Shown piece by piece: positions 11,046 to 35,800 of a stretch of DNA of 40,817 bases; position 1 is the stretch's first letter; each line of letters opens with the position of its first letter. This stretch comes from a virus. The stretch spans positions 1-40,817 of the IMG/VR virus record IMGVR_UViG_3300046425_000473, one strand, 5' to 3'. Both the position numbers and the translations under genes were made by a program. Below the pieces are notes generated by a model. The model ran no database searches and was not told where the DNA came from. It worked only from the letters and a program-made list of their open reading frames with translations.

Positions 11046-12242
11046 TTAGAATAATGATGTAGAGTAAATTAAGTTTCTATTTAGTCTTTGAAGACCCACT
11101 GAAGTTAAAACTCTATTGATCGGATCTATTACAGATTTTTCAAATTGAGTTTCATAATCTACTTGTGGAGCAATTTCATACGGATGAGCACCTGGCTGAT
11201 ACGCATACATTTCACATACATTATGGTTACAATGATATAGTTTTAGTTTTTCACCATTACCTATCATTTTATACTTATTTTTATATTTAGGATTCTGATT
11301 CATTAAGAAATTATAAAATCCTGCTGCTTTAACATTTGGAGGACATTTTAATCCATATTGAAATTCTATAGTGTCGTCTACGATATATTTTTCAATGTTA
11401 TTTGTTCTTTTATTGAAAGATATTTCGTCAACGTTAGCCATTTTAAATTCTTTCTTTGCAGTTTTCAAAAAAGAAACTAATCTACTTAACATGTCCGCAG
11501 TTGGTTTCTCAGAAAGAATTAATTTGAGAGCTTCGGTTAAATGCTTTCTCGCAAGTGTAGGAGTGGAAGACTGAATAGTATCAAATCCGATTGTCTTAAT
11601 TTTCTTAAGAGAAGGGTATCTGTCATCTATTTCTAATTTATCTTCCCATGCAATATCCTGTAAATACTTTTTCTTAGCTAGCCAAATTCCAGAATACGCT
11701 ATAGTTTCTAATTCGAAAAATAAGAAATTATCTGTATTGGTTGCTTCTGCATATTTTTTCATGGCGCCTGTTATATAATCTTTAATTCTAAAATTATATA
11801 GTTCCATGATAAATTTGTCAATAGGCATTTTTTCTTCGTGCCATTCAATAGATTCATACATTTCTTCAAATTGTACATAGCATGAATCTGTATCAATATA
11901 AACTACAGAAGGTCTTACTAATTTATTTTTAATAGAAATGTTAAAATGTTTGTGTACTTTCGAATCTTTAGGCCAAAATTCTTGAAAATATTTATTAAGA
12001 ATTTTTTCAGAATATAGAATTGCGTTTTGACCCTGTAATGTAATTGACTCTGCAATGTCTATGTTAAAAAAATGGAACCACTTATTACCAAATGCACCAT
12101 AAATAGAGTTCAGAGTTACCTTTACTGCTTGTTCATATGCAGTATACTTAGCGGACATAGTTTGATAATAGTCCGCTAAGTTTTGCATTTCATCCCTAGT
12201 AAGGTCTTCTTCGGGCTTGTTAATTAGTGTGTTTATATCCAT
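11046..12242 (-). CDS. 43B: DNA polymerase gp43, C-terminal half (43B)
   Basis: 398 aa. Family B polymerase motif B is KVTLNSIYGAFGN (from K41) and motif C is YIDTDS (D117, D119). A KKKY element follows at LAKKKYLQDI. The exonuclease domain and motif A are absent and lie in the separate gene at 16153-17550. The protein begins inside the fingers region, just before the helix carrying motif B, and ends in STSLF, a likely clamp-binding tail like those of T4/RB69 polymerases. It starts 3 bases after the clamp gene stop. Combined length with 43A is 863 aa, close to T4 gp43 (898), so nothing essential seems lost. Confidence 0.93.
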   Translation of the reverse strand: MDINTLINKPEEDLTRDEMQNLADYYQTMSAKYTAYEQAVKVTLNSIYGAFGNKWFHFFNIDIAESITLQGQNAILYSEKILNKYFQEFWPKDSKVHKHFNISIKNKLVRPSVVYIDTDSCYVQFEEMYESIEWHEEKMPIDKFIMELYNFRIKDYITGAMKKYAEATNTDNFLFFELETIAYSGIWLAKKKYLQDIAWEDKLEIDDRYPSLKKIKTIGFDTIQSSTPTLARKHLTEALKLILSEKPTADMLSRLVSFLKTAKKEFKMANVDEISFNKRTNNIEKYIVDDTIEFQYGLKCPPNVKAAGFYNFLMNQNPKYKNKYKMIGNGEKLKLYHCNHNVCEMYAYQPGAHPYEIAPQVDYETQFEKSVIDPINRVLTSVGLQRLNRNLIYSTSLF

Positions 12243-16144: not shown

Positions 16145-16170
16145 GAAAAAGATTAACTTAATCTTTTTCT
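16144..16170. repeat. 27-base palindrome over the 43A stop codon
   Basis: Perfect 13-base arms (AGAAAAAGATTAA and its complement) around one central base at 16157. It contains the last codons and the stop (16153-16155) of 43A. As RNA it can fold into an A-U-rich stem. It marks exactly where the polymerase reading frame was cut. Confidence 0.7.
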
Positions 16171-17550
16171 AAGTTTATCAGCTTTTGTAAAATACTCATA
16201 AGAAGTATTCTTATAAGCTTTACGCTGATCATACAGGTCTGCTAATATTTTTTTTAACATTGAAGTTTCTTGCTTGTATACAACTCCGTTCTCACATACA
16301 ATAACTTCTTTGTCATTTCTTCTTTCTTTTATCTCACTAGAATCTATTTTTTCTATAAAGGAATCTGGTGAAATATTAAATTGTCTCATAATAGAGGGAT
16401 ATAGAGAAGCAAAGTCAAAGGCGCTTACACCTTCATAATACCCTGTGATAGGTTCTTTTACAAAAGCTCCGGCATATTGTCCATTCTTTTCTCCATCTTC
16501 TTTAGGTTCTGATCCAATTCTTTTACCTTCTTCTGAAAGTTTTCTTGCAATCAATGATTCTGTTACAGCAACCGGAGATGCAGCTTTATAGAGAGGCATT
16601 TTTGTAATGTTTGCAAGAGTTAATAGAACTTCCATTGACTTTAATTGTTGATCGATATAATATACAAGAACCGAGTCAACTACATTATAATAAATGTATT
16701 TAGTAAAATCATCTCTATAAAGGTCTTGGAGTGAACCTGTAAACTTAATCTTATTTACATTTAGAACTTGTCCTGCTACATAATCAAGTGCATTAGATTC
16801 TTTTACCTTTACAGATCTATCATACTTATCATAAAGTTGCATGTAATCTAAGATTCCAATGTGCAAAGGTCTACTATCATTTCTATCTAAAGATTGAGTC
16901 ATAGAAACTTCTGCAACATCTATTTGAAGTCTTTTACATCTGTTTACAATATATTGCCAGTCATAGTTAATAAAGTTCCAGCCTGTCATCATTGGAAACT
17001 TAGGTAGAAATTTCATTAAGAAGGTGTAGACCATATCATATTCAGTTTCAAACTTATGATACCTAAATTCCCAATCTTGATCAAAGTTCTTAAAATAGTT
17101 ATTAGTATCTTCTTCAATCTTTTGAATATTAGAAGAAGACATATCTTCTAATCCAAGAACAATTGCTTTATGATCAGGTGTGATAATAGAAAAAGATAGA
17201 ATTCTACTTTTTGCTTCTTCTGCTTTTGGAAAACCATCAACAATTTCTGTCTCAATATCGACAAAATATGTTTTAGGCATATTATATGCAAAAATTTCTT
17301 CTTTATCTTTTTCAGGTAAAGAGTCTAGAAAATAAGTTAAAGAAAATTTATTGTATCTTCTTGCGTTACCGAGCTTCACTGATCTTCCGTCCCAGTTTTT
17401 ATGGTCTAAACTTCTACCCCTATCTTTACCGTCACATACATACCAATTCTGATATTGCTGAACTGGATATTGTTTAAAAGCTACTTTACCCTCGGTGTCG
17501 TAATACGATATAATTACATCCTTGTCTCTTTGTTCAATGTCTAATATCAT
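16153..17550 (-). CDS. 43A: DNA polymerase gp43, N-terminal half (43A)
   Basis: 465 aa. It holds the 3'-5' exonuclease motifs (Exo I D98/E100 in FVDIETE, Exo II in WNFINYDWQYI with D197, Exo III Y288/D292 in YYNVVDS) and polymerase motif A DFASLYPSIMRQ (D379). It ends at KADKLRKRLS, shortly after DQRKAYKN, which in T4 gp43 lies on the ascending helix of the fingers. Motifs B and C are in 43B, 3.9 kb downstream. The two chains would have to assemble to give an active enzyme. The ATG overlaps the gp56 stop (TAATG). Split gp43 genes are known in some Aeromonas T4-like phages; here the spacer is core genes, not a homing endonuclease. Confidence 0.95.
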   Translation of the reverse strand: MILDIEQRDKDVIISYYDTEGKVAFKQYPVQQYQNWYVCDGKDRGRSLDHKNWDGRSVKLGNARRYNKFSLTYFLDSLPEKDKEEIFAYNMPKTYFVDIETEIVDGFPKAEEAKSRILSFSIITPDHKAIVLGLEDMSSSNIQKIEEDTNNYFKNFDQDWEFRYHKFETEYDMVYTFLMKFLPKFPMMTGWNFINYDWQYIVNRCKRLQIDVAEVSMTQSLDRNDSRPLHIGILDYMQLYDKYDRSVKVKESNALDYVAGQVLNVNKIKFTGSLQDLYRDDFTKYIYYNVVDSVLVYYIDQQLKSMEVLLTLANITKMPLYKAASPVAVTESLIARKLSEEGKRIGSEPKEDGEKNGQYAGAFVKEPITGYYEGVSAFDFASLYPSIMRQFNISPDSFIEKIDSSEIKERRNDKEVIVCENGVVYKQETSMLKKILADLYDQRKAYKNTSYEYFTKADKLRKRLS

Positions 17551-23376: not shown

Positions 23377-24519
23377 TTATATTTCCCAGATCATTACAGT
23401 TCCTGCATCATACCATTCGCTGTACCATCCTCTTTTATTTAACTCTTTTTCCCACTTTATATTTACACCTAATTCGTATGATTTACCAGATGTATAGTAA
23501 TCATAGATTGTTACTCCTTTATATTCATCTCCATCTTCACCTGAAACCCATATACCACCCTGAGAACCATTAAATTCTTCAGTGGTTTTTACAAATCTCA
23601 TGTATTTCTTTATGAATTTTATAGTATCTTCTCTATCATGTTTCTTTTCGGTAACCAATGATTCGAATGCAGCATCTTTATCAACTATTTCAAAGCTAAC
23701 TGTATCATGAATACTTGTTTTTCTCTTTCCTTCTTTTCCTTTCTTTATTTCAACGAAAGCTTCTTGTCCTCCAACTTTACCGTCGACTCTTTTATAGAAA
23801 TAACCGTATTGGGTTTTGATATATTCTCCTACCTTTACACTTTCAGCTTCAATAACTACTGATTCTGCGTAACCTTCAATATCCCATTGAATTCTTTGCA
23901 TTACGTCTTCACCTCTAAATTCTTTCTTAGCCCATTGTAATAGACCTGGTTCATGTTTAGCGTTTTGTGCCATATCAAATGCATTCTTCCAACCATCATT
24001 AGAAGCTACATCTTCAATCCATTGATCGTATTTCTTTCTATTCCATCTTACTTTCTTAACGGCTTTCTTATGTGGACCATCGCCTAATATAGAAGTAGCG
24101 GCCATATAACTGCCAGGTTTAAATACACCAAGATCTTCTCCAGTCTCATCGTATTTAATCTCTTTTCTAAATCTTCTTAGTGAATATTCACCACCTTCAA
24201 TTTGCTTTCTTCTTGAAACTTCACCTTGTCTTTTACCTAGTTCGATTTTCTTTTCTTCTGCGGTTTTAGGATCTGTTTCAAAATGTAAAGATTTAACTAA
24301 ATCTCCAATACCTTCAAATGCTTCATTAGTTGGTTTACCTTGAAAAGATTCAAATGATTCTAAGTGTTTCATTTTCTTTTTCTTCTTCTTTTTATATTCT
24401 TCTTCAGCATCTCCTCTTCCGGCTGGAATATCCCCTGATCCAACTGATGTTTCAGTTGGTAAAGAGACTTCTCCCATTCCGGCCATATCGCCAAGTGATA
24501 AGTTTTCGTTTAATTCCAT
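23377..24519 (-). CDS. Modular protein, candidate capsid-internal
   Basis: 380 aa. The N-terminal 49 residues end in a run of seven Lys (K43-K49). M50 then begins MKHLESFESF, itself a leader-like sequence preceded by an A-rich tract, so an internal start is possible. Motifs resembling prohead-protease sites occur at PTNE66, ESVVIE224 and ESLVTE291. They divide the chain into a basic domain (67-224), a small strand-rich domain (225-291) and a C-terminal aromatic domain with IWVSGEDGDE. No enzyme motif seen. It is the last gene before a terminator and lies 3 bases from its neighbour. A packaged structural or DNA-binding role is inferred. Confidence 0.6.
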   Translation of the reverse strand: MELNENLSLGDMAGMGEVSLPTETSVGSGDIPAGRGDAEEEYKKKKKKKMKHLESFESFQGKPTNEAFEGIGDLVKSLHFETDPKTAEEKKIELGKRQGEVSRRKQIEGGEYSLRRFRKEIKYDETGEDLGVFKPGSYMAATSILGDGPHKKAVKKVRWNRKKYDQWIEDVASNDGWKNAFDMAQNAKHEPGLLQWAKKEFRGEDVMQRIQWDIEGYAESVVIEAESVKVGEYIKTQYGYFYKRVDGKVGGQEAFVEIKKGKEGKRKTSIHDTVSFEIVDKDAAFESLVTEKKHDREDTIKFIKKYMRFVKTTEEFNGSQGGIWVSGEDGDEYKGVTIYDYYTSGKSYELGVNIKWEKELNKRGWYSEWYDAGTVMIWEI

Positions 24520-24522
24520 ATC

Positions 24523-24840
24523 TTAATATTCAAATGGAGGTGTTCCATAATCATCCTGTTCGATGCCATACCAAACATTTCCTACTTGAAAATACCACCA
24601 TCCGTATTTTGTGTCGTCTACTATTTTAAATTTCTTGGGTAATTTGACAGATTTTTTTGGAGCTCTAGCAATATACTTTAAAACTGGAACACCATCGTCC
24701 CATGTTTTTTTAGTAGATCTTGCGTCAACAGAACCTCCATCCGAAACAGCATCATAAACTTTAGCATCATCAATTTCAGTAGCTAAAGTATCAATTGCTG
24801 ATTCATTTATAAATTGCTCATATAGTTTTACTTGTTTCAT
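24523..24840 (-). CDS. Small protein with capsid-targeting-like leader
   Basis: 105 aa. It begins MKQVKLYEQFINE then S, very close to the T4 internal-protein capsid-targeting sequence MKTYQEFIAEA, which is cut after Glu by gp21. Removal after E13 would leave a 92-aa protein with a basic centre (KKSVKLPKKFK) and an aromatic C-terminus. The same 11 residues QVKLYEQFINE occur inside the upstream gene's product, encoded by different codons. Likely an injected internal protein; function unknown. Confidence 0.65.
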   Translation of the reverse strand: MKQVKLYEQFINESAIDTLATEIDDAKVYDAVSDGGSVDARSTKKTWDDGVPVLKYIARAPKKSVKLPKKFKIVDDTKYGWWYFQVGNVWYGIEQDDYGTPPFEY

Positions 24841-24856
24841 AGTTCTTGTTTTTTAA

Positions 24857-25579
24857 TTATGACCAGCCTTCTGCTGTTTCCATAGTTTCTGCAAATTGTT
24901 CTGCAGTAGTTACTTCTCCCATCCATTCTGTTTCAGCTTCTTCTGATTCACACCAGACTGTTTCACCATTCCAAAAGAAAGTGTAACTCTGTTCTGAACC
25001 AAATGGATTTTCATAAGAGCCCGTTTCAACTGAAATTTCGTTTCCACTAGCATCAACGTTCTTAAAGCCAAAACCTTCTAGTTCTTTCTTTACTTTTCTA
25101 GCGTTAAATCTTTCGTTAATAAACTGTTCATACAATTTTACTTGTTCAAACTGTTTTTGAAAGGCTTGTCTCTTATGAACTTTATAGCCTCTGTTTCCTG
25201 TTCTTCCAGCCTCTGCTTCCATGTGAACTTGCCAAATAGTTGATAAATTTCTAGTGAATGTATTTAATTGACCTCTCCATGCAGTATTTGTAGTAACATG
25301 TTTAAATGCTTTTTGAGCAGCTTTCATCCAATCTGCATGTATTTTATTACTAGCTCCATAGTCTCTATCGTCCTTTGCCTTAAAAAAAGAATCAGAATCT
25401 TTTACAAATTTCTTTAATAATTTATCTAAGTCTTTATCAAAGTCGTTAAGATCGTATTTAGCAGGTTTAATATCTCCGTAAATTAATTTAGTTCTTTGAA
25501 CTAAACCTGTTAAGAACTCTCTATCATCCTTGTCGCCAGTAGTTTCCCACTTAAATTTTTCTTCTATTTTATTATTCAT
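24857..25579 (-). CDS. Two-part protein with an internal leader motif
   Basis: 240 aa. Residues 1-143 form a Lys/Asp-rich helical domain. At 146-156 comes QVKLYEQFINE, identical to the leader of the downstream gene, followed by a ~84-aa acidic domain (FFWNGETVWCESEE). It looks like an ordinary internal protein fused behind another one, or a precursor cut at E156 into two products. The frame is open without an extra start at the junction, and no sequencing error is needed to explain it. No family recognised. Confidence 0.6.
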   Translation of the reverse strand: MNNKIEEKFKWETTGDKDDREFLTGLVQRTKLIYGDIKPAKYDLNDFDKDLDKLLKKFVKDSDSFFKAKDDRDYGASNKIHADWMKAAQKAFKHVTTNTAWRGQLNTFTRNLSTIWQVHMEAEAGRTGNRGYKVHKRQAFQKQFEQVKLYEQFINERFNARKVKKELEGFGFKNVDASGNEISVETGSYENPFGSEQSYTFFWNGETVWCESEEAETEWMGEVTTAEQFAETMETAEGWS

Positions 25580-25596
25580 AATTTTTAAGTCTTATT

Positions 25597-26943
25597 TTAC
25601 CAAACTATGTTCTTGTTATCCCATTTAGCCATTCGCTGCTTAAGCTCTAGAGCTTTACGTTTAGCATCTCTTTTATACCAATCGCTTGAAGTTCCATATT
25701 TTTCTTCTTCAGTTTTTGCATTAACGTATGCCGAAACATATCCTTGATAATCTGACAATATATTTGAAATATAATTGGTTAAATCTCTAGGTTTAATATC
25801 TCTTCCTTTAGGATCTTTTCCTATTGATAATTCGTTATAGTCTCCCATTTCTTTTTTAGCTAAACCGGCCATTAAGAATTGATGAGCATCTTCAATAATT
25901 TCTTTAACTTGTTTGTCTATTTTATCTGGATTATCTGCTCTTTGTGCTAAAATTGATTGATATTTAGTGATGTTTGCTTGTTTAATATCTTTTGGATTAT
26001 CAAACGCGGTAGCATCGGCTTTTTGAGAAAATCTTTGCGATACTTTATTACTTGTAGAAAGTCTATCTCTAACAGCGTCTAAATTAATAATGTAACATTC
26101 GTCTGAAACCTCTGCGATTCTTTTAATATTTCCTAAGCCTGTTCCACTCCATGAACTATGAGATTTATCTATCCCGACAGTGTCTTTAGAACCAGGGTAT
26201 CTTCCTCTATTCTTTAAAGATCTTGTAGTTTTATGTCTTTGTTTTCCATCCACATACTCTCTAGTATATGCAGCATGATTGTCAAACATTTCGTTTTTAC
26301 CATTTGAGACTGCTAATAGGGTGTTTCCTGGAATAATATCTTTTCCACCATAACTATTTCTAGGTGTGTAAGGATTTTCCTTTTCGTTTCTAGAAATCCA
26401 AAATACTAATACATTTCCGTATGTTTTTGCTTTCTTATAAACTTCAACTGGATTTGAATTAGTGATAACCATGTCGTCGGTTACTTTATCTAATGCTACT
26501 TTAGCAAGACCATATATACCCTGTATTAGTTGCTTACCACCCTGTCTGATGTCTATTAAGTTTCTTAGTTTAGAAGACTTAAGAGCTTCATTAAGTTCAA
26601 TATCTAATGATTCAGTTGCTCTGTATTTTGCAAATTTACCCTTTTTAATCTTTTTAACTAATTCAGCTTCACTGTCGTCCATGTGACCATATACGTCATT
26701 ACTTGTTGCTGCGTTTACTATTTCTCCAGCATCTCCAATAAAATAAGTTCCACCGGCGAATTCTTCTCCATCCATATCTAGATCCCATCCTCCAGCATCT
26801 AATGAATCTTTAGAAATTGTAAATTCTTTACCATCTGCCTTTGAAAGAGCCGATGCTAATTTTTGTGCTATTTTAGCAGTATCTTTCTGCTTCATAACCT
26901 TTGCTTCATTGATAAAATTATCGAAGTTAGTATATAGTTTCAT
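25597..26943 (-). CDS. Large protein with leader and internal site
   Basis: 448 aa. It begins MKLYTNFDNFINE then A14, a capsid-targeting-like leader. A second site-like stretch ESLDIELNE then A occurs at 111-119. Between them is a ~105-aa acidic domain. The C-terminal ~330 residues form a basic domain with conserved-looking FWISRNEKENPY, DKSHSSWSGTGLGNIKR and ECYIINLDAVRDR. I cannot assign the C-terminal domain. An enzymatic role such as transferase is possible, since T4 packages the ADP-ribosyltransferase Alt in the same way, but no ART motif is clear. Confidence 0.65.
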   Translation of the reverse strand: MKLYTNFDNFINEAKVMKQKDTAKIAQKLASALSKADGKEFTISKDSLDAGGWDLDMDGEEFAGGTYFIGDAGEIVNAATSNDVYGHMDDSEAELVKKIKKGKFAKYRATESLDIELNEALKSSKLRNLIDIRQGGKQLIQGIYGLAKVALDKVTDDMVITNSNPVEVYKKAKTYGNVLVFWISRNEKENPYTPRNSYGGKDIIPGNTLLAVSNGKNEMFDNHAAYTREYVDGKQRHKTTRSLKNRGRYPGSKDTVGIDKSHSSWSGTGLGNIKRIAEVSDECYIINLDAVRDRLSTSNKVSQRFSQKADATAFDNPKDIKQANITKYQSILAQRADNPDKIDKQVKEIIEDAHQFLMAGLAKKEMGDYNELSIGKDPKGRDIKPRDLTNYISNILSDYQGYVSAYVNAKTEEEKYGTSSDWYKRDAKRKALELKQRMAKWDNKNIVW

Positions 26944-26955
26944 TTTCTATAGTTT

Positions 26956-29583
26956 TTATTTATTGTATATATCCTTTATAAAAGATTCTAGGGTTAAGTT
27001 AACTACTTGCTTATTCGTAATTTCTTTAAAAATTCTTTTTCCATATTTAGAAAGCTTGATTCCTTCTTCACTTACCATAAAAAATCTAGAATTTCTTCTC
27101 ATCCATCTTTTACTGTCAATAGATTTTTCTTTTAAAATATTATTGAATTCTTCTTCTGTTAATATTCCATCCGAAAGAGCTTCTATCATTGCGTTTCTAA
27201 CCCTTGCAGATCTTCCAGCTGTTTTTGCTGGATGCTTGTCTGTATACTTTCTTTTTATTTGAATTTTAGATTCAGAAACTACAGATTCACCAATACCTGC
27301 AATATCTGAGTATTTAACCTCATGCTCTTCTCCGTCTTGATCGATTGCAAATACAACATCATCGTGCCACATTTCTGCATTGTCGTCATTGTTAGAATCT
27401 GGGTTATAAACTAGTAGTTGAGTACCGTCTCCTAATTGAATAAACATGTCGTCTTTATTCTTAATTGCTTTTAATAACTTTTTCTTGTTATATTTTTCTT
27501 CTACTTTTTCACCTGCTTTTAAAGGTGCCATATCTTTATACATGCCATATAACCAATCCATGAAGTCAGGTGTATTTTGAAATACTTTCTTATAATCTTT
27601 CTTAAACTTTTTTAAGAAATCATCCCAGTTTTTAGAATCGGATGCCATCAAATGAATATTTGACATTACACCTTCTGTTATAACTAATTTTACATCTTTG
27701 TTTTTTCCAGCTACGGCGTCGTCTAATTCTTTAGTTAAAGACTTTTTCTTTGCTGTTAAATCAATTAATTGTTGTCTTAATTTTGATTTTTCATCACTTC
27801 CTTCTTCAGCAGCAACATATACTTTAACTATATCTTTCATTTTATTAACTGTTTCTCCAAACTCCTTTGAAATCTTGTTAATAGAACGAGCTTCATTTAA
27901 GGTAGATTCTTCTAATTTTTTAGAAGCTAAATCTTTATCTTTTTTAGAAACATTATCTAAGTAAGACCCGTCTCCCCAGAATTTAACAACTAATTCAGTT
28001 TGAGTAGTTGAATGCATTCCTGGTTTGTAAACTGCAATATCTCTTAGTTTTTTATTAGAAGAGATAGTTTTCTTCATAAAGTCTAGTGCTTGTTTCTCGC
28101 TTCTAAACTTTTTCATAGCACTTACGCCATCGCTATAAATAACTTCGTAGTTTTCAGTAACTGATGATTCATCTAGTTTATCTAAACCCCAGTAGTTAGC
28201 CATGTCGTATTTTACTGGATAAATTGCTAAATCTCCAACATTACCTTCAGTCGCTTCTATGTTTTTAGCAAGATAGAAATCTCCAGCTCCTTCTTCGTAG
28301 CCCCAATCAGCTGCGTCTGCTTTCATTTCTTTCTTAAACATTTTAGCAATTTTCTTAAAATTACCAATAGCAATTATTTTTACAACATTATCATTATAAT
28401 CTATACCCTTATCTCCTACTTTTAAATCTCCTTTAGCTTCAGTAACTACTGACTCATAGCCATCATATTCATATACAACTTTCTTGTTTCCTAATGCTGA
28501 TGCCATAGCAGAAACTTCAATCCAATTTACTTTTTCGCCATCAGGTCCTTCCCACTTACCTTTACCAAGGCATGTGTAAGTGATACCATTGATTTCAATA
28601 GTTCTACCTGCTGGTGCCATCTTTATAGAGTTGCCGGCAGCTTTACCCTTGATTTCTTTTTCATTGTAGAAATCATCATATTCATCTTCATAATCGTCAT
28701 ACTCAGGCTCTTGATACCATGATTGGTTTGGATCTGATTCTGCTTCTTGAGTAAAATCATGTCTTTTCCAATTATACCTAGGATCTGTGACTAAAGCTGG
28801 AAAAAGAGTTTTGCGCTTTTTATCTTTAGTTTTTATTTTACCAAACGCTAAATCGATACCAAGTTGTCTTAATTCTTTAAATGAACCTTTCATTGTTTTA
28901 ACGTCTTCTTCAGTATATCCGTTCATAGTTGCAACTAAGTCATAGTAATCCATACCGCCAAATTCTCCATAGCCTTCATAGTCTCTTTCTTTCCAAGAAT
29001 TACCTTGGTTGTCGTACATGTAAACGTCTATTTTATTTTGAGGTTCTGAACCAATCTGATCTCCAGTATCTTGTGTCATCCATGAGAATTGACCTTCAGC
29101 TATCATTTTTTCATGTAACATTTGAGCACCTGTTGTTACAATATTTAAATAGCTTTCAGGAATTCCATTTGCAAAGTTATGAAGTTCTGGTTCGAAATCT
29201 GGCATACCACATGCATATCTTGGATATGTTGCACCTTCAGTATTTACAAGAATTGACATTCCATAATACTCTCCTAATTCGCCCCTTTCAGTATTACAAT
29301 ATAGTACGAATACTTGAGGAACTTGAACCTTAAAATTTGATTGCATAGGATAATCTGGATGACATCCTAATTCTTTAGTAGTATAGACTTCTAATGAATC
29401 TAATTCAGAAGAATATTTACTTAATTCTTTTAACGGGATAGAAGCTCTTTGATTAAATAGATCTCCCCAATAAGAAGGTTTTCTTAAAGAGTATTTTCCA
29501 GAAACTCTTTTATATACTTTATATAAATCAACGTTTTCATTCATTGAATTTACAAAGCTTTCAAATGTTTTTTTAGTGCTCAT
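26956..29583 (-). CDS. Polyprotein-like modular protein, 875 aa
   Basis: The largest product here. It begins MSTKKTFESFVNSMNE, a leader-like start. Five boundary motifs follow: ESVVTE382, ESSVTE477, ESTLNE564, LVITE637 and ESVVSE771, each next to A, N, A, G or S. They split the chain into pieces of about 366, 95, 87, 73, 134 and 104 residues. The first piece has aromatic-rich strands and an acidic run near 290-305. The 565-637 piece is a coiled coil. The last piece is basic (RSARVRNAMIEAL, RWMRRNSRFF) and could bind DNA. No catalytic motif seen. I infer a precursor cut by the prohead protease into small internal proteins. Confidence 0.65.
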   Translation of the reverse strand: MSTKKTFESFVNSMNENVDLYKVYKRVSGKYSLRKPSYWGDLFNQRASIPLKELSKYSSELDSLEVYTTKELGCHPDYPMQSNFKVQVPQVFVLYCNTERGELGEYYGMSILVNTEGATYPRYACGMPDFEPELHNFANGIPESYLNIVTTGAQMLHEKMIAEGQFSWMTQDTGDQIGSEPQNKIDVYMYDNQGNSWKERDYEGYGEFGGMDYYDLVATMNGYTEEDVKTMKGSFKELRQLGIDLAFGKIKTKDKKRKTLFPALVTDPRYNWKRHDFTQEAESDPNQSWYQEPEYDDYEDEYDDFYNEKEIKGKAAGNSIKMAPAGRTIEINGITYTCLGKGKWEGPDGEKVNWIEVSAMASALGNKKVVYEYDGYESVVTEAKGDLKVGDKGIDYNDNVVKIIAIGNFKKIAKMFKKEMKADAADWGYEEGAGDFYLAKNIEATEGNVGDLAIYPVKYDMANYWGLDKLDESSVTENYEVIYSDGVSAMKKFRSEKQALDFMKKTISSNKKLRDIAVYKPGMHSTTQTELVVKFWGDGSYLDNVSKKDKDLASKKLEESTLNEARSINKISKEFGETVNKMKDIVKVYVAAEEGSDEKSKLRQQLIDLTAKKKSLTKELDDAVAGKNKDVKLVITEGVMSNIHLMASDSKNWDDFLKKFKKDYKKVFQNTPDFMDWLYGMYKDMAPLKAGEKVEEKYNKKKLLKAIKNKDDMFIQLGDGTQLLVYNPDSNNDDNAEMWHDDVVFAIDQDGEEHEVKYSDIAGIGESVVSESKIQIKRKYTDKHPAKTAGRSARVRNAMIEALSDGILTEEEFNNILKEKSIDSKRWMRRNSRFFMVSEEGIKLSKYGKRIFKEITNKQVVNLTLESFIKDIYNK

Positions 29584-29603
29584 TTTTATTTGTATTTGTT
29601 TAT

Positions 29604-30683
29604 TTAAACTCGGTTAGGCTTTATTTTATATTTAAATTTACCTTGTGTAATAGAATATATTTGTAATTCGCTAGTTTTTCCAGGTAATTTCTTGTAATAG
29701 TGAAAAGCTACTATTTCATGATCTTTAGACTCTATAAAAAGGAATGGAGTAGGTATATCTCCTACTGCTGAAATTACATCGTCTTGTATTTCAGTAAATG
29801 TTCTAACGGAAGGCTCAGTCTCTATTATACTTTTAATTTTTTCTGCAGTTTTAGAGTCACTTAGCTTTCCTAATTCTACGTCATTAAATTTAATTACTAA
29901 TGCGCCGTTATCTTTATCTCCAGGACCTATTTTAAAATCTCTTTCACTAGAAGAAAGGGCCTGAATATCTGTCTTAGTTAAATTTTGAATATGCTTAAAT
30001 CTTTTTCCACCTACAGTTCCCCATTCATTTATCCAACCTCCACCGGCAGCCATATCTTTACCATCTCCGTCCGGGTTGATTTCTTCAATATTATATTTTA
30101 CTGCGTCATATAATGCCGTTAACTCCGGTACATATGTACTATTAATTCCCTGGTGTTTTGCACCTGTTCTCCAATTTTGTAACATGCCCTTTGACATTTG
30201 AGCTTCTTTTAACTCACATTTACCAAGGGGTGGTTTAACTGGTGACCACCTTTCATTATATAATTCTAAGTCAGTATCGGCCGCACCTCCACCTATTTTT
30301 ATATTTTCTACAATATACGCTAGCATTATTTCTCCAGCACCAATTCCATTATCGTCTCTTCCAATATTAAACAATTCGTTTGCTTCGCTTTTATTTAACA
30401 TTAAATATTGAAAAACTACTCCGAATGTATTGTCATCCATTTTAGAAAGCCATAACCTACCATCAGGTTGCTGTTTAACATCCGATGTTGAAGTAAACTT
30501 AACACCTTGCCATGGACACTTATTCTTTTTAAATGTTCTATTAATTGAATTAAATAAATTCTGTTGGGCAGATTTACTTCCGGTCGTTGCAACTCCAATA
30601 TAGGATTCTATAATTAACGCTTCATTTTCAGCATTGGTTTTTGCAGCACTATGTAGTGCTCTTTCAAAATCGTACCTATCCAT
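29604..30683 (-). CDS. Hypothetical protein, 359 aa
   Basis: Not recognised. The N-terminus ALIIE26 then SYIG might be a processing site. The middle has GIGAGEIMLAYIVENIKIGGGAADTD and a Gly-rich GGGWINEWGTVGG; the C-terminus is strand-rich and basic (QGKFKYKIKPNRV). It overlaps the end of the ligase/NMNAT-like gene by 8 bases and so is made with it. Its location suggests the same packaged group. Confidence 0.55.
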   Translation of the reverse strand: MDRYDFERALHSAAKTNAENEALIIESYIGVATTGSKSAQQNLFNSINRTFKKNKCPWQGVKFTSTSDVKQQPDGRLWLSKMDDNTFGVVFQYLMLNKSEANELFNIGRDDNGIGAGEIMLAYIVENIKIGGGAADTDLELYNERWSPVKPPLGKCELKEAQMSKGMLQNWRTGAKHQGINSTYVPELTALYDAVKYNIEEINPDGDGKDMAAGGGWINEWGTVGGKRFKHIQNLTKTDIQALSSSERDFKIGPGDKDNGALVIKFNDVELGKLSDSKTAEKIKSIIETEPSVRTFTEIQDDVISAVGDIPTPFLFIESKDHEIVAFHYYKKLPGKTSELQIYSITQGKFKYKIKPNRV

Positions 30684-32550
30684 TGTTTTCTAAAAATTGT
30701 TTAAATGTTAATAATGATTCAGCAACTTCATTTGATTCTGAAGTACCTACTGAATCTTCTAATTTTTTCTTAAGTTCGCCATACATTTTATGTAATGCTT
30801 TGGGTGTTGTTGACTTAAATAATCCTTCATCTCCGTCTAGCATTGCGTTTCTAACCTGAGTCGCTGAAATATTATCATCTGTTCTTGGAATTTCAAATAA
30901 TCTAAAGTCGCTTCTAACTCCAAGATCTTCTCTATAAGAATCTTTATTTACTTGGAATCCGTAAGTTTTCATTCTATCACTTCCTGTTCCCCATAATACA
31001 GGTTCATATTTAGGTCTCATTGCATTGAACATAGTATCAATACCTCCTGTTGGAATTACAAAAATTTCTTTTAGGAATGGATATTGTTTTTGAACCGCCT
31101 TAAACATCTTAAGTTGCGTTTTTTCATCATAAGGTCTTTTAAAAGCGTCTTCTTTTTTCTTATTCTTTGCTTTGACTAATAATACTACAACAGGATATCC
31201 ATTTTCTTTGTGTATAGTTTCTAATACTTTAGCATGTCCAAGCGTAAATGGTTGGAATCTACCAACAAACATATTTACTAATTCTCCTCCTTGTTCAGGA
31301 TGATCTACCTTAAGCGCTTCATTTAAATTAACACTAGTCTTTACTTTGTTATGTAATATAAAATTGTTAAAGTCATATATTGAATTTTCGTCGGTGTTTT
31401 CAACGAATATCTTTTTATCTATTTCTTCTACTATATTATTTAAATGCTCTATCATTTCTTTATTTAGAATATCGCTTTCTTTATTTCTCTTTTTTCTAAA
31501 AGATCCGAGCGTTATTTTAAATAATTCTGAAAGTATTTCGTTTTCCACTAAAGAAAGTGTGGTTTCGTTTTTAATGTATTTACTATTTAGTTTAAATACA
31601 CTATGGCTTGCAAAGTCGGCTGATTCAAAGTTAACTCCTATAAATTTAGTAGAATTTTCATTTACATATTTATTAAATATAACGGACATTAATTCAATGT
31701 ACCTAAGATCTGCTGTTTCTTCGTTTAGTTGAACAGAGTTCATGTCAAATGAAGAAAGATATTCGATTAGATCAGCTATAGTAATCTGATACATGTGACT
31801 AGATTCCTTAGAGTTGCTCTCGTTGTTTCTAGTAAAGTCTTCTAATTTAAAAGATTTTACTTTCTTTCCGTCTATAAATGAAATTATTAGACCATCAATC
31901 TCAACCTCAAAATCTTCATTCAATATTGGTGAAGTTTGATTCGGATTAAAAATCTTTATTATTTTCTGTGTAAATGAAGTTTTAAAATCCGTAGATCTAT
32001 CATAGTCAAACGACTCTACAAATTCTTTATCTGACATAGATAAAAGATTTATTAATTCTGTTTTTTGATTTTGATTTAAAGTTCCATCAAATACTATGCT
32101 AGGTCCTTGAACTTCTAATTTTTTTGCCCATTTGTTTAAAACAGAAGGGTCATAAATAGTTTTTTTAACTTTACCTGATTCAGATAACGTTTGTATATGT
32201 GTTAATATTAAATTATTCTTAGGAAGTTTAGTATATTTGTATTGTGATATTTCTAATTCAGGAAGATAGTCAAATCCAAATTTCCAATCTGTTGGCATTT
32301 CTTCTTTAACTGAAGGATCTAAACTTTGAATATGTTTAACCCCTGTTTCGTATAGTCCTACGATAGTTCTATCTATCATATTCATACGAATATCTCCAGA
32401 TTTAAAATATTCAAACCTTTCTACGTTTCTTCTTACGTGAAAAGATGAACCTTGTATTTTTTCAGTAACTAAAATTCTATTTTTCAGAAGATCCTGAAAT
32501 GCATTAATGTTAGTTTCTTGAAATACTTGTCTTATTTTTTTAAGTGCCAT
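30676..32550 (-). CDS. Ligase-type nucleotidyltransferase fused to NMNAT-like domain
   Basis: 624 aa. Residues ~25-240 carry the pattern of covalent nucleotidyltransferases (RNA/DNA ligases, capping enzymes): motif I EKIQG with candidate nucleophile K31, motif III-like FGFDYLPE, motif IV EIDGLIISF and motif V VKSFKLEDF. After a helical middle and SVNLNE411 then ALK (a boundary-like site), residues ~427-600 form a Rossmann adenylyl/cytidylyltransferase: GRFQPFTLGH at 430-439 and ISATQVR at 561-567, as in NadM/NadR NMN adenylyltransferases. The C-terminus ESLLTFKQFLENNG resembles the leader motif. RNA end repair or NAD-linked chemistry is inferred. Confidence 0.72.
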   Translation of the reverse strand: MALKKIRQVFQETNINAFQDLLKNRILVTEKIQGSSFHVRRNVERFEYFKSGDIRMNMIDRTIVGLYETGVKHIQSLDPSVKEEMPTDWKFGFDYLPELEISQYKYTKLPKNNLILTHIQTLSESGKVKKTIYDPSVLNKWAKKLEVQGPSIVFDGTLNQNQKTELINLLSMSDKEFVESFDYDRSTDFKTSFTQKIIKIFNPNQTSPILNEDFEVEIDGLIISFIDGKKVKSFKLEDFTRNNESNSKESSHMYQITIADLIEYLSSFDMNSVQLNEETADLRYIELMSVIFNKYVNENSTKFIGVNFESADFASHSVFKLNSKYIKNETTLSLVENEILSELFKITLGSFRKKRNKESDILNKEMIEHLNNIVEEIDKKIFVENTDENSIYDFNNFILHNKVKTSVNLNEALKVDHPEQGGELVNMFVGRFQPFTLGHAKVLETIHKENGYPVVVLLVKAKNKKKEDAFKRPYDEKTQLKMFKAVQKQYPFLKEIFVIPTGGIDTMFNAMRPKYEPVLWGTGSDRMKTYGFQVNKDSYREDLGVRSDFRLFEIPRTDDNISATQVRNAMLDGDEGLFKSTTPKALHKMYGELKKKLEDSVGTSESNEVAESLLTFKQFLENNG

Positions 32551-32560
32551 ATCTTATTAT

Positions 32561-33934
32561 TTATCTTCCGTACTTTATAACGCCCATTAATTGATTAATA
32601 GCGGCAAATGTACCCGTTAATTTCATAGTTTTTCCTTTATATACGAAAACTATCCCTTCGGTTGGTATAATAGATTCTACTCCACCAATTCTATCTAATC
32701 TCTCTAATTCTTTCATTACCTTTTCGATCTGAGCAACGCTTCCGCCTTTCTTAATTTTATCAGCCTCTGTTCTAATCTGATTATGCAATCTTTGCATTTC
32801 TTTGTCAGGATTAGCTGCTACAAAATTGGACGCATTTTTAAGAATTATAGACCCTAATTCTAAAAATAAATCTTCGAAAGGTCTAATGTTTTCTTTATAT
32901 TTCTTTTTAACATCTTCTTTGTCGAATTTCTTAACCGCTGCTGCTTCATCTTTTCCTATTTCCTTTGCAAGACTTCTCATGTTAAGAGTTTTCTTATCTC
33001 CATAGGCCCATCTTAATAATAAACCTTCTTTATAGTCTTGTTGTAGATTAGGGAAATTTTCATCAATAGTTTCTCTCCACCACATTTCATGATACCTAGA
33101 AACCTCGTCACTATCTGTTAGATTGTAACGATCTCTTAGCGCTTCAATTTGTTTTATAAATTTAGCATGATTTTTTTCAAAATCAATATCTTTTCCTAGT
33201 TTTAATATTTGAGGGGGAATTATTGTAAATGTTTTTTGAACATCAGCATCAACTTCTTTTAATGCGGAAACAAGCTCTCCTGCTATTTTTTGCTCTCCAA
33301 TAATATTTCCATTTCCATCAGTTTCCTTAATATCATGGAATTGTAAAACATCTCTTTCGTAATAAATGACATTAGGATTCTTAGAGTAAATTAATTCCAT
33401 ATTAATAAAGTTCTTACCTTCATTGAATATAGACTGATCCTTCATCTTTGGAAGAGCTTCATTTAGGTCTTTAGCAGCAAACACATATGTTTCTCTTACT
33501 AAGGGAACTTCATGCTCTTCAAACATTTTTATAATCCCGTCTAAATCGACTGGGCTAATTAATTGGCCTTTATTTCTAGAAAATAGAGTAACTCCGTTTC
33601 TTACTGTGGCAAATAAATTTTGGCCGTCTGTTTTTTCTGTTGCAACTTCTTCAAAGTTTAATTCTCCTTGAAGACCTGATTTTACTATTGTTTTAAAATC
33701 TGCAAACGTTAAATCTTTCTCATCAAATGGATGTGACATATGTCCTGCAGCACCGCCTTCTAAGATTAAAGATTCTTGCAGATTAGAAAACTTCTCAACG
33801 ATAAATTCGTCAAATGTTAAAATTTTATTTTCGTATCTTTCTGATAAGAAATGAGCAACATATTCTTCTCTAGTCATACCTTGCATATCTGCATGATGCT
33901 GAATAAAGTCTACGAAGTTGTTATCTAGTTTCAT
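32561..33934 (-). CDS. Ligase-like nucleotidyltransferase with leader
   Basis: 457 aa. A leader-like LTFDEFIVE (39-47) and ESLILE59 precede GGAAGHMSHPFD, which would be the mature N-terminus. The ligase motifs are: motif I EKTDG with candidate nucleophile K101, SRNKGQ downstream, motif III-like FINMELIY, motif IV EGIVF (E426) and motif V MKLTG (K438). This is the nucleotidyltransferase core without an obvious OB or C-terminal nick-binding domain. I recall similar GHM-HPF proteins in marine T4-like phages, with no known function. It lies 10 bases upstream of the fused ligase/NMNAT-like gene. Confidence 0.7.
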   Translation of the reverse strand: MKLDNNFVDFIQHHADMQGMTREEYVAHFLSERYENKILTFDEFIVEKFSNLQESLILEGGAAGHMSHPFDEKDLTFADFKTIVKSGLQGELNFEEVATEKTDGQNLFATVRNGVTLFSRNKGQLISPVDLDGIIKMFEEHEVPLVRETYVFAAKDLNEALPKMKDQSIFNEGKNFINMELIYSKNPNVIYYERDVLQFHDIKETDGNGNIIGEQKIAGELVSALKEVDADVQKTFTIIPPQILKLGKDIDFEKNHAKFIKQIEALRDRYNLTDSDEVSRYHEMWWRETIDENFPNLQQDYKEGLLLRWAYGDKKTLNMRSLAKEIGKDEAAAVKKFDKEDVKKKYKENIRPFEDLFLELGSIILKNASNFVAANPDKEMQRLHNQIRTEADKIKKGGSVAQIEKVMKELERLDRIGGVESIIPTEGIVFVYKGKTMKLTGTFAAINQLMGVIKYGR

Positions 33935-33953
33935 TTATATTACTAATATAATT

Positions 33954-33993
33954 AAAAAAATCGACCTAGAAAAATTCTAAGCCAATTTTTTTT
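33954..33993. terminator. Terminator-like hairpin, both directions
   Basis: Hairpin at 33963-33983, nine pairs including G-U, with short loop. Minus-strand T run over 33954-33960; a plus-strand T run at 33985-33993. It separates the 67-aa gene from the ligase-like gene. Confidence 0.65.
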
Positions 33994-33997
33994 TAAT

Positions 33998-34201
33998 TTA
34001 TAATCCTTTTACCCAGGATTTAAATAGGTCCCAGTTACGAGTTGCAAATACGCCAAATGCAAATCCAGCATAGATTTTATAGCCAAACGCCCATAAAGCA
34101 AGTCCAGCAATAAGGCCTAAAACGCCTTCAACTCCGTTTGCAACAACCCAAGTCTTAACGGCATTAAATGCCTTTTTAATAAATTCAATTACTTTTTTCA
34201 T
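33998..34201 (-). CDS. Small membrane protein
   Basis: 67 aa. A basic amphipathic N-terminal helix (KKVIEFIKKAFNAVK) is followed by one or two hydrophobic stretches (GVLGLIAGLALWAFGY and IYAGFAFGVFA) and a basic tail. Topology resembles small phage membrane proteins such as holins or superinfection-exclusion proteins, but nothing specific identifies it. It follows the 528-aa gene by 12 bases and is followed by a terminator, so it is made with a presumed internal protein. Confidence 0.7.
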   Translation of the reverse strand: MKKVIEFIKKAFNAVKTWVVANGVEGVLGLIAGLALWAFGYKIYAGFAFGVFATRNWDLFKSWVKGL

Positions 34202-34213
34202 ATTATTGTATGT

Positions 34214-35800
34214 TTAGTTAGTAGATTCAGTAGACACAGATTCGTTACATAGTGAAACTAATTCTTTTGCAATCTTTTCTGCTTTAGAACCTTTATGTCC
34301 GTACGTTTCAACTGTATCTAAAGCATCTTCCATTTCCATGCCATGTAATTCTCCAATGTCTCCTCCTCTTTCGTCTAAAAGATCTTGTAAGATATTTTCA
34401 GCTTCTGATTCGTTAACTACAGATTCAAACGCTGGAACTAATCCAGTTTCTGCGTAAATATCTGCCATCATCCATTTTTTAGATTTTTCATCCCATAAAT
34501 AAATAAATTCTGCACCAGCTTCGTAATTTGCGTTTTTAATATAATCATTAATTTTATTAACGCTACCTGTCATTAAATTAGAATCTCCACCGTAGAAATT
34601 AATTTTCTTAATGTCTTTATCTAGACCTGAATTGTCTCCATTCTTAAGAACGAAATCTACATTCTTACCGCTTTTAAATGTTGATTTAATAATAGGTAAC
34701 ATATTTTCTGGGTAAGAATCGTAGTGAGTATAAACTGAAGTAATATTTCCTTTTCTGTCTATTTTACCAAATTGGCCTCTAGTTCCTTCATTAAGAACGA
34801 TTGCAACTGACTCTTCAATATAGTCTGCTAAACCTGCATCATCCCATCCTAATTCTCCATCTGCTAATACCGCTTCTAAATCCTCTCTTTTACCTTGCAT
34901 AGTAATTTCAGGGTGACCAGTTGGTCCTGATTTTACCATATCGATGATTTTAACGTTATTCTTCTTTAAGAATTTTAAGAAATCTTTATCTTTAGGATTC
35001 ATAGCGTCCATTGTGACGGTTGCTTCAAAAACAAGGTTAGACTCCTTTAATGATATTTCTTCTTCTGATAATTGGTATTCAACACTCTCATTAGCTGCAT
35101 TAAAACCTGCTAATAATTTTTCAGCGGTTGAACCTTCGCCAATAGATTCTAAATACATTGCTGTTCCTTCAGCAATTCCAGGACCTGACCATCCCGCTGC
35201 ATTTGAAATTCTAGAATAATATTCATCTAGAATTTTCATAATGTTTTTTGCACCAACGATAATTGCATGTTTTCCTAAAGATTCAGGAGAAACTGAAATA
35301 CTGTTTAATCTACCTTTGATAATTTTTTCAGTAGCTGATCTTGCTGAATGAAAGTTAGCGTCAGTTAGAGCTTCATTATATAAATATTTAATAGCTCCTA
35401 AATAAGTTACTTTATCTGCTGTTAGACTTCCCAACTCTGCAAAAATCTTTTTAAATTGAGTTACTACCTTTTTAGCATCTCTCTTATATCTAATATCTAA
35501 AGCTTCTGAAATTTGCTCTTCCGACTCTTCCGTTTCTTCAACTTCTTTTTCAACTTCAACTTCAATTTCTGCAATTTCTTCTTCAGAAACGTCTCCGAAT
35601 ATTTTTGAGATGATTGTTTCTTTTTGGTCTTCTTCTAAACCTTCAAAAGAAGTTAGTCCTAGTTCATCTAGGATAGTAGCTATTTTACCAACAGCTTCTT
35701 GTCTTTTTAAATTATTTTCTTCTCTAAGTTTATTAGCGTTTTTTTGTTTTCTAATTTCGGTAAAAGACTTAAAAGAAGAAATTTTGTTTATTTCTGCCAT
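34214..35800 (-). CDS. Modular protein with repeated site motifs, 528 aa
   Basis: It begins with SFKSFTE (9-15), leader-like. Boundary-like motifs are EEQISE99-A, ESNLVFE259-A, ESVAIVLNE338-G, ESVVNE464-S and LCNE520-S. The pieces are: an acidic coiled N-terminal part (15-99), a helical domain (100-259), an ~80-aa domain with MDAMNPKDKDFLKFLKK, a ~125-aa domain with GQFGKIDRKGNITSVYTHYD, and a short acidic end. The 339-464 piece resembles a small domain seen alone in other phages. Same design as the 875-aa protein. A cleavable packaged precursor is inferred. Confidence 0.65.
   Translation of the reverse strand: MAEINKISSFKSFTEIRKQKNANKLREENNLKRQEAVGKIATILDELGLTSFEGLEEDQKETIISKIFGDVSEEEIAEIEVEVEKEVEETEESEEQISEALDIRYKRDAKKVVTQFKKIFAELGSLTADKVTYLGAIKYLYNEALTDANFHSARSATEKIIKGRLNSISVSPESLGKHAIIVGAKNIMKILDEYYSRISNAAGWSGPGIAEGTAMYLESIGEGSTAEKLLAGFNAANESVEYQLSEEEISLKESNLVFEATVTMDAMNPKDKDFLKFLKKNNVKIIDMVKSGPTGHPEITMQGKREDLEAVLADGELGWDDAGLADYIEESVAIVLNEGTRGQFGKIDRKGNITSVYTHYDSYPENMLPIIKSTFKSGKNVDFVLKNGDNSGLDKDIKKINFYGGDSNLMTGSVNKINDYIKNANYEAGAEFIYLWDEKSKKWMMADIYAETGLVPAFESVVNESEAENILQDLLDERGGDIGELHGMEMEDALDTVETYGHKGSKAEKIAKELVSLCNESVSTESTN

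Follow-up and report, generated by a model that had tools for sequence, protein, structure and literature searches.

The gene block analysed here likely encodes precursors of T4-like internal head proteins that are made as polyproteins and cut by a prohead protease. The viruses concerned are uncultured T4-like sea phages, and the window, that is the whole stretch of DNA analysed, is a 40.8-kb fragment of one of them (IMG/VR record IMGVR_UViG_3300046425_000473, positions 1-40,817). The sites, the modularity of the proteins, the exchange of modules at the sites and a protease gene in a near-identical contig are visible in the sequences; cutting, packaging, ejection and function are inferred.

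In the proposed mechanism an N-terminal capsid-targeting-like peptide would carry the precursor into the prohead core, and a gp21-family prohead protease, fused to a scaffold-like part in this clade, would cleave after Glu at hydrophobic-x-Glu. Cleavage would release the targeting peptide and several modules per chain, mostly of 7 to 18 kDa, which would remain with the DNA in the head, then enter the next cell and there be expected to act like T4 IPI, IPII, IPIII and Alt (anti-restriction or takeover). Modules are acquired, dropped and traded as units at the seams. T4 gp21 cleaves after L/I-X-E, and T4 internal proteins bear targeting peptides of this kind (PMC9026906).

A recurrent motif separates modules in the block

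An initial annotation had proposed that six genes share a motif of the E-S-(V/L)-(V/L)-x-E type, mostly followed by A, S or G and spaced by about 70-160 residues, in capsid-packaged precursor polyproteins matured during head assembly. All motifs that it spelled out were present in their genes, on the minus strand, and the following residue was A, S or G in 8 of 10, the exceptions being ESLVTE (K) and ESSVTE (N). In the block (4083 aa) ES...E occurred 13 times versus 2.2 expected from 2000 residue shuffles (highest shuffle 10), and E-S-[VL]-[VL]-x-E occurred five times versus 0.04 expected. The remaining genes (9033 aa; 500 shuffles) had three ES...E versus 4.0 expected and no E-S-[VL]-[VL]-x-E versus 0.10, and enrichment of the ES...E motif is restricted to the block. 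Glu with a hydrophobic residue is unspecific by itself, since broad [VILMF].E[AGS] sites also exceeded shuffles in the non-block genes (53 versus 35).

The features are as follows, where a slash marks a proposed cut.

23377..24519 (-), polyprotein A, 380 aa; leader 1-66, modules 67-224, 225-291 and 292-380; proposed cuts ESFQGKPTNE/A, ESVVIE/A and ESLVTE/K
23848..23865 (-), A seam ESVVIE/A, GAATCAGTAGTTATTGAA
23647..23664 (-), A seam ESLVTE/K
24523..24840 (-), protein B, 105 aa; one module behind targeting-like peptide MKQVKLYEQFINE/S
24802-24825 (-), LYEQFINE of B
24857..25579 (-), protein C, 240 aa; internal targeting-like peptide QVKLYEQFINE/R
25112-25135 (-), internal LYEQFINE of C
25597..26943 (-), polyprotein D, 448 aa; targeting-like peptide, module 14-119 and module D2 120-448
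26587-26613 (-), D seam ESLDIELNE/A before D2; proposed cut at residue 119
26956..29583 (-), polyprotein E, 875 aa; targeting-like peptide FESFVNSMNE/N and six modules; proposed cuts at residues 16, 382, 477, 564, 637 and 771
28438..28455 (-), E seam ESVVTE/A
28153..28170 (-), E seam ESSVTE/N
27892..27909 (-), E seam ESTLNE/A
27673..27690 (-), E variant cut KLVITE/G, without ES
27271..27288 (-), E seam ESVVSE/S
26971..26988 (-), E altered seam ESFIKD, close to the C-terminus
30676..32550 (-), G, 624 aa; C-terminal domain NMN adenylyltransferase-like, N-terminal part unassigned, which we take to be ligase-like
30718-30738 (-), ESNEVAE/S of G, close to the C-terminus
32561..33934 (-), H, 457 aa; FDEFIVE/K, then ESLILE/G, then a conserved domain
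33758-33775 (-), ESLILE/G of H
34214..35800 (-), polyprotein J, 528 aa; leader 1-99 and four modules; proposed cuts at residues 99, 259, 338, 464 and possibly 525
35504..35527 (-), ESEEQISE/A of J
35024..35044 (-), ESNLVFE/A of J
34787..34813 (-), ESVAIVLNE/G of J, immediately before a phrog_1987 match (residues 339-449)
34409..34426 (-), J seam ESVVNE/S, GAATCTGTAGTTAACGAA
34226..34243 (-), ESVSTE/S of J, close to the C-terminus

The claimed spacing largely held, as the proposed cut-to-cut length was 64 to 160 residues in 14 of 17 modules, with three longer ones of 329 (D), 366 (E) and 398 (H) residues. Module masses were 7-18 kDa in 14 of the 17 and 37-45 kDa in the other three, and 13 of 17 had an acidic or neutral calculated pI, unlike the internal proteins of T4, which are basic. 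Protein F lacked an ES motif. What the initial annotation had missed were the variant sites without ES (KLVITE at residues 632-637 of E; FDEFIVE at residues 41-47 of H), the N-terminal targeting-like peptides of genes 24523, 25597 and 26956, the internal copy in gene 24857, the movement of modules between proteins and the DNA-level conservation of the seam.

Modules are exchanged at the seams

Comparison with related contigs (80 loci, gene maps drawn for 11 of them) showed A, D, E and J to be modular chains whose units have been added, removed or relocated at the motif, between genes as well as between phages, and modules turn up in other combinations in related phages. The D, E and J genes of G012, a contig of a near-identical virus, are 97-99% identical to the window in DNA except for a two-module insertion in D; locus L004 has a two-module insertion at the D seam, and its copy of A carries different modules between seams of this type. 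A relative of the part of C after its internal peptide stands alone in G007 behind MKYLKLFEQFVNE/K, while relatives of the module after ESVVSE of E directly follow an N-terminal targeting-like peptide in other phages (FIGE/GKITLKRRYTE). Near the altered seam of E, a 76-aa C-terminal stretch in L005 and L029 opens with ESFINE where E has ESFIKD.

Breakpoints were analysed in representative proteins (102 of 245). At ≥75% identity 52.6% of 293 breakpoints lay ≤12 aa from the motif, compared with 13.8% of random positions (highest of 300 trials 20.1%), and at ≥60% identity the figure was 36.4% of 651 versus 13.0%. The excess was weaker at ≥45% identity (25.9% of 1041 versus 13.0%), and for all matches 19.2% of 1275 breakpoints lay ≤10 aa from the motif versus 10.6%.

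Glu stood exactly before the module in 189 of 213 distinct upstream contexts, and 187 of these 189 had a hydrophobic P3. These contexts belong to the 17 modules of the window that start behind a proposed cut and were counted from hits reaching the first four residues of the module with ≥12 residues upstream; the leaders A0 (0/9) and J0 (0/1), for which no preceding cut is expected, are outside the 213. Glu was present in all contexts of D2 (35/35), J1 (22/22), J2 (25/25), J3 (28/28) and H1 (34/34), with a hydrophobic P3 in every D2 and H1 context, four module families had both features in 84 of 84 contexts, and family m3 had Glu in 4 of 4. In 24 of the 213 contexts Glu was missing from the exact register, some without any Glu nearby, and the contexts are not independent as they are drawn from related phages. 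P3 was often Val, whereas the published T4 rule is L/I-X-E.

In each of 30 contigs absent from this first set, [LIV]-x-E preceded D2; their upstream sequences comprised 25 distinct stretches. Three of 33 rows had been excluded as weak secondary alignments without Glu elsewhere in proteins of L196, L197 and L209, each of which also has a proper D2 row, and 11 alignments were left out because they stopped short of where the module starts or were too close to an end. This second set holds duplicate contigs, and L159 is 100% identical to the window in the D gene.

An alternative, which we consider unlikely, is that these are whole multi-domain 'polyvalent' proteins in which the motif is an uncut flexible linker or a recombination joint. 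In its favour, phage polyvalent proteins combine several domains in mosaic fashion and their packaging has been predicted (PMC5512222), and protein cutting alone does not require the synonymous conservation seen at the seam. Against it, P1 Glu and hydrophobic P3 persist behind unrelated upstream sequence, also at seams of non-ESVV form (LLCE, SYNE, LILE), and targeting-like peptides of identical ending precede some of these modules.

Targeting-like peptides, protease and prohead core

Under the favoured reading of head-protease precursors, a targeting peptide would be expected, and only part of the block proteins has one at the N-terminus. Targeting-like peptides ending in FINE/ lie directly on genes 24523 and 25597, that of gene 26956 ends in FVNSMNE/, and H has FDEFIVE/ after 40 extra residues. 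A has a targeting-like stretch only at residue 53 and no clear N-terminal peptide, and J likewise has none that is clear (MAEINKISSFKSFTE). The records examined held 56 distinct pattern matches to N-terminal targeting-like peptides, and some block modules follow such peptides in other phages.

The initial annotation had proposed looking for gp21 elsewhere in the genome, comparing its sites in scaffold and capsid proteins, and asking whether the motif stays in related phages; it would have been refuted by motifs inside folded domains. No gp21-family protease was matched in the 40.8-kb window, where control profiles also had no match; the same profile does detect the protease in relatives, above the curated cut-off (PF03420) in 13 of 15 related records, G012 included, where it is joined to a scaffold-like part. 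Conserved sites of the same type occur in scaffold-like and capsid proteins from this clade (RVNE/S, TVNE/A, KLYE/D), and in related phages the motif persists although entire modules on either side are replaced. Structure models of J and D placed the motifs within or adjoining low-confidence linkers, so the refuting case did not arise, albeit in models of modest quality. D was modelled instead of E because many fragments of the E alignment were only 20-31% identical. The claim of precursors matured during head assembly is thereby supported, with cutting and packaging still inferred.

Modules are also tied to the prohead core, as a polyprotein module of 28-32 aa was found within the scaffold-like part in 3 of 8 aligned proteins and in G012 a gp67-like core protein carries a 140-aa module as an in-frame fusion. 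Because T4 gp21 also breaks scaffold and core proteins down to small peptides, most of which are lost from the head, the tie to the core is no proof of retention. It is unlikely, in our view, that the block encodes prohead core (scaffold) proteins whose pieces exit the head, as most of T4 gp22, gp67 and gp68 does, and play no part in the next cell. This reading is favoured by the modules that recur in the scaffold-like part of the fused protease and in the gp67-like protein, and by the many acidic modules. However, the modules have the size of folded domains, whereas the T4 core is cut to small peptides before exit (PMC9958956, PMC9026906), and the conserved domain of H, with its KxDG and EGxV motifs, shows enzyme-like invariant residues; we take it to be ligase-like.

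Least plausible is that the polyproteins are cytoplasmic and processed by a protease of the host, or by another one of the phage, without any link to the head. The block of G012 is separated from the head genes by about 25 kb or more, and the window has no protease match, which would fit this reading. It is opposed by the targeting-like peptides, by the modules that recur in core proteins and by the occurrence of this type of site in gp23 and the scaffold-like part.

Searches for function and relatives

Searches of Pfam, PHROGs and NCBIfam gave the NMN adenylyltransferase-like match at the C-terminus of G, phrog_1987 in J and little else in the block. Gene 3260 had an AAA-like match and a match to phrog_1250. 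No peptidase domain was found in nine scanned block proteins (Pfam, NCBIfam, E ≤ 0.1), and Foldseek with the J and D models returned no match at E ≤ 0.001. PDB sequence searches found only NMN adenylyltransferases for G and nothing useful for H or D. A tblastn search with J and D gave no match in 50,697 phage records, so no virion data from isolates could be used, and a pattern scan with D across contigs of bacterial genomes found no relative.

Conservation of the seam in DNA

The seam is conserved at synonymous positions too, and may therefore also serve recombination. A dual use, in which an 18-nt linker (about GAATCAGTAGTTA[AC]TGAA) is both a head-protease site and a short homology for exchanging whole modules, is a tentative proposal that we rate slightly below an even chance. 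A palindrome kept for DNA pairing (TCAGTA-GT-TACTGA) was rejected, because Asn forms (AAT, AAC) break its arms and, at 30 of 67, are about as frequent as ACT at 26 of 67. Direct DNA-level descent of each seam from an N-terminal targeting peptide was unsupported, as codons and residues differ.

Comparison with known systems and implications

The proposed precursors resemble T4 IPI, IPII, IPIII and Alt in a short N-terminal peptide ending in hydrophobic-x-Glu with a proposed role in core targeting, in fast-changing mature parts and in a gp21-family protease in the genome. T4 internal proteins have one mature unit each; in A, D, E and J each chain would comprise two to six modules separated by internal cuts, and these proteins would therefore be a variant and not plain T4-type internal proteins. 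A further difference is that modules are exchanged at a seam whose DNA is conserved as well. Like polyvalent proteins, which Iyer and colleagues compared with viral polyproteins in 2017, they are multi-domain and mosaic, with proposed joint packaging and delivery (PMC5512222), but release of polyvalent proteins was ascribed to embedded peptidase domains (PMC5512222), whereas none was found in the chains scanned here and the sites fit a head protease. Head proteins of SPN3US cut by the prohead protease gp245 are similar in that many are cut after Glu, with several cuts per propeptide (PMC10052503); in that phage 13 of the 14 sites serve to remove N-terminal propeptides (PMC10052503), while the cuts proposed here would free several modules per chain. 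In eukaryotic RNA viruses one polyprotein chain yields many mature proteins through defined protease sites. The block shares this plan, but in a DNA phage, with proposed cutting in the assembling head and without fixed module order. Such polyproteins were unreported in the titles and abstract openings returned by searches of open-licence PMC literature.

If the proposed explanation is true, the injected proteins of a tailed phage are synthesised as polyproteins and freed by the head protease, and swapping links at a built-in joint alters the injected set. In silico cutting at the seams could then reveal, from sequence alone, which proteins uncultured phages inject, and so supply a defined set of anti-defence candidates. 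Should the more tentative dual-use seam also be true, the virion interior would be an array of interchangeable cassettes of delivered proteins that can be rearranged to counter host defences.

Motif recurrence and residues at the proposed cut sites

The initial annotation had claimed that a short ES...E motif recurs in genes of positions 23377-35800 (the block; minus strand), and this held, the motif being found as described. The 4083 aa of the block contained 13 copies against 2.2 expected from shuffles, in comparison to 3 copies against 4.0 expected in the other 9033 aa of the window. The strict peptide ES[VIL][VIL][NTSVI]E was also counted in two long related records, with 4 copies in 3 of the 203 proteins predicted for G003 (0.23 expected) and 5 copies in 2 of the 276 for G007 (0.24 expected).

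T4 gp21 cleaves after L/I-X-E (PMC9026906, PMC9958956). Residues at the proposed cuts (after Glu, marked below by a slash) were counted for 17 window modules starting behind such a cut, giving 213 distinct upstream contexts. Glu stood in exact register in 189 of these, 187 of which had a hydrophobic residue two positions before it. Among the 24 remaining contexts, all six of module A1 (gene A, 23377) were off by one residue, others were off by one or two, and at least one, before a D1-like match, lacked any nearby Glu. Module D2 (gene D, 25597) was preceded by [LIV]-x-Glu in 30/30 contigs outside the first set.

In the AlphaFold2 model of the gene J (34214) protein (mean pLDDT 68.5), Glu 99, 338, 464 and 525 fall in stretches with pLDDT below 50 (69-100, 319-339, 460-464 and 521-528), and Glu 259 lies three residues past stretch 239-256. 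In the D model (mean pLDDT 66.5), the motif at 111-119 ends a low stretch spanning 36-119. The underlying alignments held 38 (J) and 26 (D) sequences, and the quality of both models was modest.

Modular arrangement and module exchange

A scan with gene H (32561) returned 239 related stretches, from which the best 80 loci were retained and gene maps drawn for 11. Together with BLAST searches using the block proteins, these maps showed that A, D, E (26956) and J each consist of a string of modules, which turn up elsewhere in a different order and in different genes. Similarity breakpoints among 102 representative proteins (out of 245) were compared with random positions for their proximity to motifs. 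Breakpoints lay within 12 aa of a motif in 52.6% of 293 cases at ≥75% identity (13.8% random), 36.4% of 651 at ≥60% (13.0% random) and 25.9% of 1041 at ≥45% (13.0% random), with a weaker excess within 10 aa when all matches were included (19.2% of 1275; 10.6% random).

Gene D provides a single clear-cut event. The parts shared by the window and related locus L004 are 99% identical in DNA, while L004 carries 483 additional nt comprising two whole modules at a seam (a motif at its proposed cut); the two stretches of alignment share 10 nt at this point. One inserted module has counterparts at 91% identity in proteins of loci L036 and L049, where H matches that of L004 at only 78% and 76%. Between loci with H below 80%, 88 stretches of at least 40 aa matched at ≥90% identity, spread over 54 locus pairs and including some whole orthologous genes or N-terminal leaders. 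Modules are also common to a targeting-peptide protein of G003 and a polyprotein of L042 (96.6%), and to a G007 polyprotein and L004 (88.9%). A second cluster lies away from the block:

G007:55507-61117, second polyprotein cluster with seams present, including one polyprotein of at least 1271 aa (truncated by the end of the sequence piece)

Some modules also sit behind N-terminal peptides, as MKKFEEFIGE at the N-terminus in other phages occupies the place of the window's internal ESVVSE. Gene C (24857) contains a complete internal targeting-like peptide, followed by a part whose G007 relative stands alone behind such a peptide. Near the E C-terminus the window has ESFIKD, with the protein ending shortly after, in comparison to ESFINE and an additional stretch in loci L005 and L029.

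The seam at the DNA level

Codons were counted in 67 seams whose flanking sequence was unique on either side. The Val at position 3 was GTA in 51 cases and GTG in 1, and that at position 4 GTT in 51 and GTC in 2, while Val codons in motif-bearing ORFs were 55% GTT and 40% GTA. The VV pair was written GTAGTT in 59/68 cases within the motif and 80/372 outside. Allowing no more than one mismatch, the seam sequence was counted 168 times across 1.88 Mb, a total to which overlapping and near-identical records contribute repeatedly. All but one of these copies (167) are read in frame within an ORF of ≥100 aa, and the exception sits near a contig end. The in-frame seams and their codon bias therefore indicate translation of the seam into protein as well as its maintenance or copying at the DNA level. 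The simplest reading is that modules may be exchanged by short homology. The Thr form of the seam (window 28438-28455 and similar) contains the inverted repeat TCAGTA-GT-TACTGA, which Asn forms do not keep.

Prohead protease and core proteins

Matches to PF03420 (gp21 family) above the curated cut-off were found in 13/15 related records, one of which, G012, is almost identical in sequence to the window. The G012 protease forms the front of a 679-aa protein encoded between portal and gp23, and the portion behind it is considered scaffold-like by position and composition, with no family match. A fusion of this kind is located as follows:

L105:6635-8674, fusion of gp21-family protease and scaffold-like part, 679 aa

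The eight aligned fusion proteins measured 567 (truncated at a contig end) to 820 aa, and all carried RVNE behind the protease part. V[NT]E/[AS] was present near the C-terminus of all 6 clade proteins extending that far, and gp23 had KLYE/DA and TGINE/[AS] in 6/7; distant L134 lacked both sets. A 28-32 aa polyprotein module (GNAFG...) lies inside the scaffold-like part of 3/8 proteins (BLAST E 1e-4 to 8e-4). In G012, a 140-aa module known from other phages' polyproteins is fused in frame, with junction KVNE/S, ahead of a putative gp67-like core protein, named from its position. These modules, within the scaffold-like part and before the gp67-like protein, therefore tie the polyproteins to the prohead core.

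Enzyme-like proteins and genome setting

H (window 32561-33934) has invariant KxDG, E180, EGxV and a later Lys, the pattern of covalent nucleotidyltransferases such as ligases, a putative assignment without a PDB sequence match. In Microcystis phage Mel-JY01, its relative is part of a protein annotated as cytidylyltransferase-like. G (window 30676-32550) joins an NMN adenylyltransferase-like domain to a putatively ligase-like N-terminal part with no family assigned.

The 40.8-kb virus record is likely a fragment. PHROGs matches among the scanned genes (head-closure protein, late sigma factor, DNA polymerase part, DNA helicase and ssDNA-binding protein) mark a T4-like set. The C-terminal part of DNA polymerase is its own gene (11046-12242), and by eye we take 16153-17550 to be the N-terminal part, with other genes between. 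One further gene has a targeting-like start:

Window 3260-4615, AAA-like ATPase (phrog_1250), start MRHKILKYDDYLVE/A, also ESMLLE and METKNE sites

The host is not settled by the nearest matches of ribonucleotide reductase (Flavobacterium and Cellulophaga phages, 50-53%) or portal (a 462-kb uncultured phage, 57%); marine T4-like phages with Bacteroidetes hosts are a prediction of earlier work (PMC7198788).

Proposed relation to internal head proteins

T4 internal proteins carry targeting peptides of about 10 residues. Among them, IPI inhibits a type IV restriction enzyme (PMC9026906, PMC9958956), and Ip2 and Ip3 block distinct subtypes (PMC12373910). In SPN3US, 13 of 14 head-protease sites across nine proteins represent N-terminal propeptide removal (PMC10052503). 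The nearest concept is that of polyvalent proteins, which are multi-domain and predicted to be packaged (PMC5512222); in a survey of how protein fragments are shuffled in phages (PMC10684548), the words protease and linker do not occur in the text searched. Because A and J are without a clear N-terminal targeting peptide, our confidence that the block encodes precursors cut by a gp21-family protease is slightly lowered. The cutting, packaging and delivery of block proteins are inferred, in comparison to their arrangement and exchange, which are shown in sequence. Taken together, the block likely encodes internal head proteins of the T4-like type, made as multi-module precursors whose links can be exchanged.
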